Source: Chloroflexota bacterium (GTDB taxonomy: Bacteria; Chloroflexota; Dehalococcoidia; Lucifugimonadales; UBA3495). From it: DNA of 61,897 nucleotides. Below the pieces are notes generated by a model. That model saw nothing but the letters and a program-made list of their open reading frames with translations. It ran no database searches and was not told where the DNA came from. Below are positions 1 through 60,113 of the stretch, one piece after another. The translations under genes were made by a program, and so were the position numbers. Numbering within the stretch: position 1 is the stretch's first letter; each line of letters opens with the position of its first letter. The stretch spans positions 1-61,897 of the forward strand of contig VXOG01000079.1 of assembly GCA_009840165.1 (NCBI GenBank), written 5' to 3'.

Positions 1-228
1 GTTTTGGGGGTCATATTGGTGGTTTTGGCAGGCTGATGGGAGGATTTGGGGGAGCGGTGTTCGAGCGTGGGGCGTGATAGTCAGAATCAGGATTTACGGG
101 ATTTCACGATTAGCAGGATTGGGGGGCTGACAGTTTGAGTTGGGGCGATTGGATAGTGAATGGGTTGTTTTACACGTGTAGGGATAGTATAGAACGTGAG
201 TTCCCTAAACGTCGATAGGCTGGTGTCA
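1..228. other. Left edge, no gene recognised
   Basis: No convincing reading frame is seen here. Positions 81-120 contain a run of related AGGATTT/AGGATT-like words (TCAGAATCAGGATTTACGGG and following), which looks like a low-complexity dispersed repeat. The last ten bases (219-228, GCTGGTGTCA) are the left copy of the direct repeat flanking the MITE-like element. Confidence 0.5.
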
Positions 229-413
229 CAGGGCAATCGCATTTGAAACTTACAGGCCCGTCACTCCGGCGAAAGCCGGAGTCCAGAGGCCACAGAATGA
301 AGACAACGAAAGCGAAACTGGATATTCCAGGCAGTGGATACCGGCTTTCGCCGGTATGACGGTCGCCGAGAGCGCCGGATCAATGACCCAACGGTTGAAA
401 TGCGATTGCCCTG
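229..413. mobile_element. MITE-like element, copy 1 (185 bp)
   Basis: The element begins CAGGGCAATCGCATTT and ends with its exact reverse complement (398-413), giving 16-bp perfect terminal inverted repeats. It is flanked by the 10-bp direct repeat GCTGGTGTCA at 219-228 and 414-423, as expected of a target-site duplication. Two hairpins lie inside: about 269-284 (loop GAAA) and about 340-356 (loop TTTC). It has no coding capacity. A copy of identical length with 9 mismatches is at 59870-60054, also with a 10-bp direct repeat. The mobilising transposase is not in the window. Confidence 0.88.
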
Positions 414-527
414 GCTGGTGTCAGTAGGTTTGTCAGGTTTTTGGCGACCGCTGCCGTACCGGAAGGGATGCCCCAACGTGATAGCATGGCGGTATCTGCA
501 AACCGGATGGAATCCAAGGGCGAAATC

Positions 528-2339
528 ATGGGCAATCTGAACGTAGCGAACCGGACGCTGGCGATCATGGACAACCTGGCGTTTCTGCGCCGGTTGAACA
601 ACGAGTGCATTGACCTGATTGCCATTGACCCGCCCTTTGCCGCCAATGAAACCTTCACCGGCAACCCACGCCCACCCATCAGCGATGCCGAGTACGCAGA
701 GGAAATCGCGCTGGCGCAGGCGCACGGGGTCGAGCACAATGAAGGCCAGGGCCTGACCCGCGTCCACGACATCTGGAGTTGGGACGAGGATGTGCATCCG
801 CAATGGAAAATGCGCATTGAGGACGATTACCCGTCGGTGCACGCGGTGATCCAAGCGGTGGAGGCGTGCGCATCGGAAAACGAGGCGGCGTACATCGCAT
901 TCATGGCGTCAAGGCTGCTGGAATGCCGGCGGGTGCTGAAACCGACGGGCAGCATATACGTCCATTGTGATGGCCACGCCAACAGCTACCTACGGATGCT
1001 GCTGGACGCTGTGTTTGGAGCGGATAGTTACCGGGCGCAAATCACCTGGCAGAGAACATCCGCGCATAATGATTCCAGGACGTTCGGCAACGTGTCGGAC
1101 ACGATTCTTTTCTATAGCCGACAGAATCGCATAAATGTCAACGACGTTAGAGTTCCGCTCGATTCCGAATATGTAGAACGGTTTTACCGTTTTGAGGATG
1201 AGGGCGGAAAGTACCAACTTGGAGACCTAACAGCCGCCGGCGTACGACGCGGTGAGACTGGCGATCCCTGGCGTGGAAACGATCCCAATCGCAACGAAAG
1301 GCATTGGGCAGTGCCAATGACCGGCCTATATGCTGCCTGGATAGAGGAGACCGTCATCCCGGGATATCGGAGTATCAGTAGCCCGCTGGCTCGGCTGGAC
1401 GCGCTGGATAAAGCAGGGCTGATTTATCATCCGGCCGACGGTGGTATGCCACGCCTCAAGCGCTACATCACGGGTTATTCCGGCCAAGTGCCATCCGATA
1501 TGTGGACCGACATTCGTAACTTGTCCGGTCAGTCTGCTGAACGCACGGGCTATGCCACCCAGAAACCACTGGAGCTCTACGAGCGCATAATAAAGGCCAG
1601 CAGTAACCCCGGCGACGTAGTGTTAGACGTATTCGCAGGCTGCGCCACCACCGCGGTGGCCGCGGAGCGGTTGGGGCGTCAGTGGATTGCCTGCGATATG
1701 GCGTATCGGGCGTGGACGATGCTGAAACGGCGGTTCCTGCAAAACGGTTGGAAAATGTCCGACACAACCAACGCCAGCTATGACGCGATGGCAAGAGTCA
1801 GGGCCGCACTACCTGACACGAAGGCCAAGACCATCCACACCCATACCATCGGTCCCGACGAATTGCCGGAGCGGGATGACGTTGACCCGGAGCCGCATCA
1901 CGCTTTGCGCCAGCCCCGCCGGGGAGCGCGGCAAAGCACACAATCGTCCAGTTGGTCGGGGCGCATCCCCAAGGATGAGGCAAAGCGGCTGCTGATGGAC
2001 CGGTTTGGGCCGCGCTGTTGGGGCTGCGGCTACGAACCACGCCGTCCCAACGGCAGCCTGGACGAGACGCTGCTGGAGGTTGACCACATCCGGGCGCGGC
2101 GGGCAACGCAGGGAACCCAGGGCAATGACGAACTTTACAACCTGGCGTTGCTGCATCGAACGTGCAACGGCATCAAACGCAACCGGATGACGCTGGAAGA
2201 GCTGCGGAATCACAACGCGATGAACGGGCTGCTCTACGTGGAGAAGGTGAGCGACCTGGTGGATCTGTACGAGGCGACGCAGTTTGCGGCGGAGCAGATT
2301 GCGATACATACGGCGAGGTATGGGTTGCAGACGGTTTGA
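528..2339 (+). CDS. Site-specific DNA methyltransferase fused to HNH nuclease domain
   Basis: This 603-residue protein joins two activities. The N-terminal part is an amino-methyltransferase: the catalytic DPPF motif (about residues 34-37) precedes the SAM-binding motif DVFAGCATT (about 365-373), the order of beta-class enzymes. The C-terminal 110 residues hold an HNH fold: CWGCG, then EVDHI, then LLHRTCNGIK. I chose the ATG at 528 because AAGGG lies 8 bases upstream and DPPF then sits at the usual distance from the N-terminus; the frame is open back to a TTG at 441. No separate restriction or specificity gene is adjacent, so it may be a self-contained restriction-modification protein or a solitary methylase with a nicking or regulatory HNH domain. 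The MITE-like element lies just upstream. Confidence 0.88.
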   Translation: MGNLNVANRTLAIMDNLAFLRRLNNECIDLIAIDPPFAANETFTGNPRPPISDAEYAEEIALAQAHGVEHNEGQGLTRVHDIWSWDEDVHPQWKMRIEDDYPSVHAVIQAVEACASENEAAYIAFMASRLLECRRVLKPTGSIYVHCDGHANSYLRMLLDAVFGADSYRAQITWQRTSAHNDSRTFGNVSDTILFYSRQNRINVNDVRVPLDSEYVERFYRFEDEGGKYQLGDLTAAGVRRGETGDPWRGNDPNRNERHWAVPMTGLYAAWIEETVIPGYRSISSPLARLDALDKAGLIYHPADGGMPRLKRYITGYSGQVPSDMWTDIRNLSGQSAERTGYATQKPLELYERIIKASSNPGDVVLDVFAGCATTAVAAERLGRQWIACDMAYRAWTMLKRRFLQNGWKMSDTTNASYDAMARVRAALPDTKAKTIHTHTIGPDELPERDDVDPEPHHALRQPRRGARQSTQSSSWSGRIPKDEAKRLLMDRFGPRCWGCGYEPRRPNGSLDETLLEVDHIRARRATQGTQGNDELYNLALLHRTCNGIKRNRMTLEELRNHNAMNGLLYVEKVSDLVDLYEATQFAAEQIAIHTARYGLQTV

Positions 2340-48096: not shown

Positions 48097-48200
48097 AACA
48101 GCGCCTCCATACCCGTGTGTTGTAGCCCAATCCTAGCACAGCTTCCTTACAGACAGGGAAACCTACTAACTCCGAGTAGCCTGTGTAAAGCAGTAGGTTC

Positions 48201-48263
48201 GTCACTCCGGAGAAAACCGGAGTCCAGAAAAAGCTACTGGATTCCGGCTTTCGCCGGAATGAC
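48201..48263. repeat. Two-hairpin unit GTCACTCCGG...CCGGAATGAC
   Basis: Two hairpins (CTCCGG-CCGGAG and ATTCCGGC-GCCGGAAT) arranged so that the whole unit is also an inverted repeat. The same double unit occurs inside both MITE-like copies and at 57542-57627. It lies in the 214-bp gap before the alpha/beta hydrolase gene. Confidence 0.8.
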
Positions 48264-48310
48264 GAGTCAAATGGCAAGCAAGTTTTGTCCAGGACTATCC
48301 AGGCAACCGA

Positions 48311-57541: not shown

Positions 57542-57627
57542 GTCATTCCGGCCTTGAGCCGGAATCCAGGAACTTCCACGATTGCCTATCGCCAGGATTT
57601 GTGGATACCGGCTTTCGCCGGTATGAC
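57542..57627. repeat. Two-hairpin unit, TGGATACCGGC type
   Basis: GTCATTCCGGC...GCCGGAATCCAG followed at distance by TGGATACCGGC...GCCGGTATGAC. It sits in the 265-bp divergent gap between the MFS and luciferase-like genes. Confidence 0.8.
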
Positions 57628-57757
57628 GGTATTGGTTCTCCACGACCAATCCAAGTCTTATCAGTTAGAAGATTGCTTGCCGTCGTGGGAAAGCCAACAA
57701 TATCCCGCAAGCAACCAGTGGTATCATCGCCCCACCCACCAAACGGAGGATCTCAGT

Positions 57758-59793: not shown

Positions 59794-59869
59794 TCCTCCA
59801 TTAGCACATCCATGTCTGAGGATTATAGCAGCCGGTTGGCGTGGCGATCTCGCCATGTGCCTGTCGTCG

Positions 59870-60054
59870 CCGGGCAATCGCATTTGAAACTTACAGGTCC
59901 GTCACTCCGGCTTTCGCCGGAGTCCAGAGGCCACAGAATGAAGACAACGAAAGCGAAACTGCATATTCCAGGCAGTGGATACCGGCTTTCGCCGGTATGA
60001 CGGTCGCCGAGAACGCCGGATCAATGAACCAACGGTTGAAATGCGATTGCCCTG
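59870..60054. mobile_element. MITE-like element, copy 2 (185 bp)
   Basis: Same length as 229-413 with 9 substitutions and no gaps. The left terminal repeat has one change (CCGGGCAATCGCATTT) against the right end (reverse complement CAGGGCAATCGCATTT). Direct repeats flank it: CCTGTCGTCG (59860-59869) and CCTGTCATCG (60055-60064), 9 of 10 identical. It lies in a 365-bp gap upstream of the small coiled-coil gene and downstream of the convergent GMC gene. No other gene is in this gap. Confidence 0.86.
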
Positions 60055-60113
60055 CCTGTCATCGTTAGAAGCGACATGGCGATCTCGTCGCCGGAGCCAT
60101 TGTACTCTCAGCA

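Follow-up and report, generated by a model that had tools for sequence, protein, structure and literature searches.

A MITE with ISAs1-family ends and a pair of CGTC REP palindromes in its core

Introduction

Insertion sequences of the ISAs1 family have ends that start with CAGGG and generate target duplications of 8-10 bp. Another type of repeat, the CGTC REP, consists of a CGTC tag, a stem of 8-9 bp, a loop of 4-5 bases, and a tail that is mostly CCA, with almost invariable A-T pairs in stem positions 1 and 2, according to the available passages of Di Nocera et al. 2013 (PMC3733652). The same passages describe these REPs as occurring mostly in head-to-head dimers, with spacers of 20-100 bp in most dimers, and report them from five phyla. 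They describe these REPs as apparently lacking a dedicated transposase, with transposase genes nearby only in a few cases regarded as fortuitous, and they leave the mode of movement open, while naming mobilization by a wide range of transposases as an option. One related case is also given, in which CGTC-1 dimers of H. neapolitanus lie inside 41-bp palindromes (PMC3733652).

Certain REPs are known to reside within MITEs. In the portions available of PMC5896051, QMITE2 of Coxiella burnetii is presented as a MITE of 150-190 bp that is flanked by duplications of 7-11 nt and contains a REP, and its smaller copies, which are essentially REPs, are described as truncated MITEs. Also, MITEPye1 of Paracoccus yeei is tied to IS1182 in the available part of PMC11578231. 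The available passages of the ISAs1 and MITE literature include no ISAs1-derived MITE, the families of three Aeromonas MITEs (PMC5756416) aside. Similarly, neither an ISAs1-derived MITE nor a CGTC REP inside a MITE was found in the available parts of the literature searched, which lay outside most subscription journals and ISfinder.

Layout of the element

Two copies, W1 and W2, of a 185-bp element are present in the window, meaning the whole 61,897-nucleotide stretch of Chloroflexota DNA that was analyzed (Table 1). A preliminary description of this DNA had reported the two copies together with their 16-bp terminal inverted repeats and 10-bp target duplications, and all of these features were found again at the same places, with 9 mismatches over 185 positions (95% identity) between the copies. 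Four of these mismatches fall together at 271-274, where W1 has GAAA and W2 has TTTC (59912-59915), and this exchange in a palindrome loop is best read, judging from the two sequences, as one in-place inversion of the hairpin loop. When up to 3 mismatches are permitted, the 16-bp end is found at 4 places in the window, compared to a chance mean of 0.62, and 0/100 shuffles reach this number. The element is too short for a transposase gene and has 16-bp terminal inverted repeats, as is characteristic of a MITE. A single strand of the element folds far better than its shuffled versions (z -8.05), although much of this effect is guaranteed by the terminal repeats and the palindromes. The product of the gene adjoining W1 (window 441-2339) is a DNA methylase that includes an HNH domain (PF01555, PF01844).

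Table 1. Positions in the window of the two element copies and their parts
Feature	Position	Strand	Remarks
W1, copy of the ISAs1-type MITE	229..413	+	185 bp
W1 left target duplication	219..228	+	10 bp, GCTGGTGTCA
W1 right target duplication	414..423	+	10 bp; 10/10 match to left one
W1 left terminal inverted repeat	229..244	+	CAGGGCAATCGCATTT; also found, unchanged, at either end of the 1228-bp ISAs1 elements in G010 (L069, L350)
W1 right terminal inverted repeat	398..413	-	
W1 CGTC-REP palindrome 1	259..285	+	Tag outward; CGTC tag, 8-bp stem, GAAA loop, CCA tail
W1 CGTC-REP palindrome 2	335..361	-	Inverted relative to palindrome 1, giving a head-to-head dimer
W2, copy of the MITE	59870..60054	+	185 bp
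W2 left target duplication	59860..59869	+	10 bp, CCTGTCGTCG
W2 right target duplication	60055..60064	+	10 bp, CCTGTCATCG; 9/10 match to left one
W2 left terminal inverted repeat	59870..59885	+	One change (CCGGGC...)
W2 right terminal inverted repeat	60039..60054	-	
W2 CGTC-REP palindrome 1	59900..59926	+	Loop TTTC, inverted relative to W1
W2 CGTC-REP palindrome 2	59976..60002	-	

The genome that carries the window (G000; 3.76 Mb in 115 contigs, 96% complete) has two further 185-bp copies. One of them (G000:C86:40272-40456) has a duplication matching at 9/10 positions, and the other (G000:C77:42516-42700) is without a duplication and has one end altered to CTGGGG.... Two short elements with variant ends were also encountered in this genome, namely one of 163 bp at C52 with end CAGGGCTATCGCATAT and a duplication with 2 mismatches, and one of 135 bp at C25 with end CAGGGCAAACGCATTC and a duplication matching at 10/10 positions.

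In the loci examined from this and related genomes, a census of target duplications was made from end pairs located 80-260 bp or 1140-1300 bp apart. The pairs were collected with duplications disregarded, and those without a duplication were counted. Identical copies were counted once, which removed one member of the L072 pair, and elements whose ends depart too strongly from the consensus were left out, such as L087 (114 bp, duplication 10/10, no CGTC palindrome). Duplications of 10 bp with at most 2 mismatches flank 26/37 short pairs (22 at no more than 1 mismatch) and 0/111 shifted controls. For the long pairs, the corresponding values are 8/12 (7 at no more than 1 mismatch) and 0/36. Duplications thus have a constant length of 10 bp at independent sites, as is characteristic of MITEs, and the identification of the element as a MITE is firm. 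At L072 (1353-1690, in G014), a 164-bp ISAs1-type MITE occurs twice in tandem without any sequence difference, and the same 10-bp duplication is present three times.

The site of W2 was also compared among relatives. In G015, the orthologous interval (L331, ~2240-2425) is occupied by another ISAs1-type MITE, which has the end CAGGGCTATCGCATAT, one base changed, and its own duplication. This intergenic region has thus received a separate insertion in each of two species. In G009, G007, and G013, the aligned flanks are ~140, ~17, and ~170 bp apart, respectively, and the MITE is absent in each case. None of these four genomes offers an exact empty site for W2, and the boundaries in the last three are too diverged.

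Autonomous ISAs1 partners

The preliminary description noted that the partner transposase is absent from the window, and ISAs1 profile searches likewise gave no match there. It also proposed a search for a transposase gene bordered by the same terminal repeats, which proved successful in a sister genome of the same genus (G010). Two 1228-bp elements of this genome have CAGGGCAATCGCATTT at both 16-bp ends, identical at 16/16 positions to the ends of W1, and are flanked by exact 10-bp duplications (AAGTTTCAAG and GGGACACCGC). One of them (L069) carries an open gene for a 384-aa transposase that matches NF033564 transpos_ISAs1 with 433.7 bits (NCBIfam cut-off 70), as well as PF13808 and PF01609. 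Three segments of this protein, DGKT, DAMG, and W.IEN.LHW, resemble DDE positions and are candidates for them.

Long elements with exact duplications have ends that start with CAGGGC, and their 10-bp duplications fit the range of the ISAs1 family. Because these elements share both the ends and the duplication length of the MITE, neither feature is of a new kind. The preliminary description was thus correct in presenting the element as a MITE, but the 16-bp ends of what had looked like a new family are those of full-length ISAs1-family elements, and the 10-bp duplication that was considered unusual is made by full-length ISAs1 elements in these genomes too. With such ends and duplications, the classification that best suits the element, on the basis of sequence, is that of an ISAs1-family MITE.

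Full-length elements are present in several other relatives. There are 11 whole-profile ISAs1 matches in G016, one of them with a stop, and the two elements whose ends were inspected are 1233 bp long with ends CAGGGCAATCGCGTCT and exact duplications. One 1239-bp ISAs1 element is present in G015, whereas G005 has a 1237-bp element whose ends, CAGGGCAAACGCATTC, fit the 135-bp element of G000. Similarly, the CAGGGCTATCGCATAT end of the 163-bp element has a matching 1155-bp ISAs1 element at L175. Overall, the ISAs1 profile is matched in 22/50 genomes of the family (above the cut-off in 18), and 28/50 have the 16-bp end at no more than 1 mismatch, with 1 match in all for a reversed-pattern control.

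In G000 itself, a profile search of the contigs found no full-length ISAs1 gene but fragments only, and three such pieces are enclosed by CAGGGCAATCGCGTCT-like ends at distances of 461, 471, and 699 bp. The mover thus may have been lost, may lie in an assembly gap, or may have acted in an ancestor or another genome, and present mobility in G000 is doubtful. Since the MITE and the 1228-bp IS have only about their terminal 16 bp in common, descent of the former by internal deletion is unsupported.

The REP palindrome core

The most interesting part of the element, which was overlooked in the preliminary description, is the paired CGTC-tagged palindromes of its core. These palindromes, CGTCACTCCGGCGAAAGCCGGAGTCCA and inverted CGTCATACCGGCGAAAGCCGGTATCCA, have their tags pointing outward and are separated by a 49-bp spacer, and such a head-to-head layout agrees with the published CGTC REP dimers, including their spacer range. 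Both palindromes of W1 and of W2 also fit the published REP anatomy, with the tag, an 8-bp stem, a 4-base loop, and a CCA tail. Stem positions 1 and 2 are both A-T in palindrome 2 and are A-T and then C-G in palindrome 1.

When up to 2 mismatches are permitted, G000 has 306 CGTC REPs (0 with a reversed control), compared to 5 exact places where an end is joined to a REP. Most CGTC REPs of this genome therefore seem to stand alone, outside such elements. Two REP sites in the window, a compact head-to-head pair at 48200-48264 and a single REP at 57602-57628, have no 16-bp-consensus MITE end nearby. Among 166 distinct REPs with four-base loops from the loci examined, the loop is of the GAAA type in 148, is flipped relative to the CGTC tag in 11, and is different in 7. 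The flipped loops suggest that hairpins can be inverted in place.

A search for the Y1 transposase domain PF01797 gave 0 matches in G000, and a control search was positive in 5/14 known genomes. A RAYT origin of these REPs was set aside on this result. The pair also departs from the REPIN/RAYT type in having the tag CGTC instead of GTAG.

If REP pairs are viewed from their own side, the surroundings differ between genomes. In G058 (apparently the genome that is also represented by G014), 24 dimers are present among the 100 REPs listed first, out of 334, and 23 of these dimers were examined blind to their flanks. Of these, 19/23 lie inside inverted repeats scoring at least 13, and for each one 0/200 shuffles reach its score; 99% of the shuffle scores are at most 9, and the largest is 13. 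These 19 dimers are divided among four types of repeats: ISAs1 (2), CAGGGCCTTTTCAAAGT (5), CATAGGACTTACGCA (8), and TAGGGCGTGTCGTCAAA (4). Beyond the 23, this genome has one dimer that is bounded by GTAACTGTTCAG ends and flanked by an 8-bp duplication, and another that is bounded by GAGCCTGTTGACAAA-like ends. An IS5-like or IS66-like label for the CATAGGACTTACGCA, TAGGGCGTGTCGTCAAA, GTAACTGTTCAG, or GAGCCTGTTGACAAA ends would be a guess. The CAGGGCCTTTTCAAAGT type may be a distant branch of ISAs1, because such ends also enclose an ISAs1-like relic of 1198 bp in G000, which has no duplication, and because 3/9 of the CAGGGCCTTTTCAAAGT-type pairs found have a 9-bp duplication.

The spacers of the dimers were also compared. 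Among 45 comparisons, 5 were at or below 10 of 200 shuffles, where ~2 are expected. Two CAGGGCTATCGCATAT elements match each other at 0/200, as expected, and the 163-bp element of G000 matches a 167-bp CATAGGACTTACGCA-type element with unrelated ends at 0/200 as well (score 21), with the other three matches at 2, 5, and 8 of 200 shuffles. Most spacers thus appear to be unrelated, and one REP cassette may be carried by two vehicles.

Terminal repeats above chance were detected around 0/7 dimers that were picked from the REPs of G000, where one further dimer (L309) retains part of a single end, around 0/3 dimers in G057, and around 1/11 alphaproteobacterial dimers. The one positive case is in Azospirillum, and Bradyrhizobium and Sphingomonas together yielded 0/9. 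The alphaproteobacterial dimers, which were picked by their REPs, therefore weaken the general form of the idea that REP pairs are cargo.

Occurrence of the composite

Within the genus of the window, 17 duplication-flanked short elements were examined, drawn from G000, G006, G008, G009, G012, and G014 among the ends listed. At least one CGTC palindrome is present in 17/17, and a clean head-to-head pair is present in 10/17. Three of these elements are the window family's own copies, and 7 were found by similarity to W1; the cores of the G009 copies found in this way are no independent evidence. The seven elements that came from end patterns (L007, L042, L067, L070, L072, L317, and L328) include a clean pair in 4/7.

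The same test detected a palindrome pair in 1/9 duplication-flanked short elements from other genera of the family. Six of the remaining 8 (L310-L314 and L324), all from a second genus (G002 and G001), have inverted repeats of another kind, paired and GTC-tagged, which escape the test. These repeats are of the GTCGCCCTGAGC...CCGAAGGGCC and GTCATTCTGAGCGAAGCCGAAGAATC types and have the same head-to-head layout as the MITE, and the duplications are exact or, in L314, 8/10. The other two elements, L076 and L315, are of the ISAs1 type and have good duplications, with neither CGTC nor GTC-tagged palindromes.

Named genomes were scanned for ends with CGTCAYNCC located 4-34 bp further on, which gave at least 117 stretches, 80 of them listed. 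Among the 80 listed stretches, 14 have paired ends and both palindromes and are flanked by a duplication of 9-11 bp (2 mismatches or fewer). These loci are from Bradyrhizobium (5), Sphingomonas (3), Azospirillum (2), and Chloroflexota (4), and at least one of the latter (L160, which is element L109) is already part of the duplication census. Because the scan selected for the combination of end and REP, it indicates spread rather than frequency or prevalence. The palindromes of the scan loci differ between genera. Moreover, the composite was found in 0/293 genomes of the class sampled outside the family, which indicates a patchy distribution and no general feature.

Several types of scan loci were left uncounted. 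In ten Mesorhizobium-like and Beijerinckiaceae loci, the CGTCAYNCC motif by the end lies in the end of the transposase gene and there is no REP, whereas Reyranella and Methylobacterium loci have paired ends and no REP by the hairpin test. The two palindromes of L165 overlap.

Some additional features of these loci were recorded. The ISAs1-type targets at seven alphaproteobacterial loci (L123, L128, L134, L135, L142, L169, and L175) are palindromic, with the form CCC-N4-GGG or CCG-N4-CGG (e.g., CCCTGAAGGG), and the listed Chloroflexota targets look unlike them. In G006, a 145-bp CAGGGCCTTT-type MITE with a 9-bp duplication lies inside a REP of an ISAs1-type element (L319, 1178-1495, the same as L147), and the palindromes paired in its own core are different ones, of the GTCATTGCGAGCG type.

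Discussion

The element has target duplications, occupies separate sites, shares its ends with full-length ISAs1 elements, and holds a REP pair. There is a strong probability that it is an ISAs1-ended MITE moved in trans by an ISAs1 transposase with 10-bp duplication, and that its REP pair is a passenger. On the simplest view, the pair became enclosed by IS ends and has since been copied along with them. In such a process, the ISAs1 transposase would act in trans on the MITE ends and duplicate 10 bp of the target, whereas REP pairs captured between IS ends would then be multiplied by transposition along with those ends. Some solitary REPs would be remnants of these elements, and it is possible that REPs at large are MITE remnants. 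For some CGTC REPs, the transposases of ordinary insertion sequences are a likely means of spread.

A broader proposal, which we put forward tentatively and consider somewhat improbable in its full form, is that CGTC-REP dimers lack a dedicated transposase because they spread as the cargo cores of MITEs with various terminal inverted repeats, ISAs1 foremost, and that solitary REPs are largely left behind when these repeats decay. The basis for this proposal is that the blind-picked dimers of G058 are found in four inverted-repeat types, and that one spacer seemingly occurs in two vehicles.

Several other explanations must be considered. The presence of two copies on one contig with 95% identity could suggest that segmental duplication or recombination, not transposition, made them, but this origin is scarcely conceivable. 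The similarity stops at the element ends, the flanks differ at all four places in G000, and 3/4 of the 185-bp copies have 10-bp duplications of their own. Segmental duplication is ruled out by these differing flanks and separate duplications, and the separate insertions proposed in the preliminary description were thus upheld. It is also unlikely, albeit far less so, that the REP pair is itself a mobile REPIN-like unit, which a RAYT or similar enzyme put into an existing ISAs1 MITE that served as a landing site. Such a unit would be compatible with the dimers that lack terminal repeats in G000, G057, and the alphaproteobacteria, and with the spacer shared by the 163-bp ISAs1-type and 167-bp elements, as if one pair had entered two vehicles. 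However, G000 has no match to PF01797, and no empty version was encountered among the 17 duplication-flanked short elements of the genus. Furthermore, the tag is CGTC, not the GTAG reportedly cleaved by an E. coli RAYT (available passages of PMC3733652).

Equally doubtful is the notion that REP pairs are a working part of the MITE, with hairpins that stop or stabilize transcripts or that aid the transposase, in which case the association would reflect selection rather than history. Within one genome the layout is found repeatedly although the ends are unrelated and so are most spacers, and it is found again in another phylum. These recurrences would be in keeping with such a role, as would the strong folding of the MITE strand, to the extent that this is not guaranteed by its repeats. 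Nevertheless, end-to-REP distances vary, and the palindromes are evidently not needed, given that the ISAs1-type elements L076 and L315 of the same family have good duplications and no CGTC palindromes.

If REP pairs are passengers of ISAs1-ended MITEs, the fixed spacers and outward tags of some REP dimers would be explained, since these dimers would be the cores of elements that are copied whole. The ISAs1 MITE is a likely and testable route of spread for some CGTC REPs. The option of mobilization by transposases becomes directly testable with REP pairs in elements bounded by terminal inverted repeats and flanked by duplications, together with a matching ISAs1 transposase gene.

Comparison with known systems

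The element resembles ISAs1 insertion sequences in its identical 16-bp ends and 10-bp duplication, and its partner transposase belongs to the NF033564 family. Unlike these insertion sequences, the MITE is without a transposase gene, has only the ends in common with them, and has a REP dimer as its core. REPINs likewise have two REPs in inverted orientation as the repeated unit, but here the tag is CGTC rather than GTAG, terminal inverted repeats and a target duplication surround the pair, and no Y1 domain was found in G000. The nearest published case is QMITE2, which, in the available portions of PMC5896051, is also a short duplication-flanked MITE holding a REP. Its REP is of the GTAG type, however, it comes from another phylum, and no partner transposase is named for it there. 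With the CGTC REPs of Di Nocera et al. 2013, as described in the available passages of PMC3733652, the palindromes of the MITE share the tag, stem, loop, tail, and dimer layout, and they differ in that the dimers reside inside elements that are bounded by terminal inverted repeats and flanked by target duplications.
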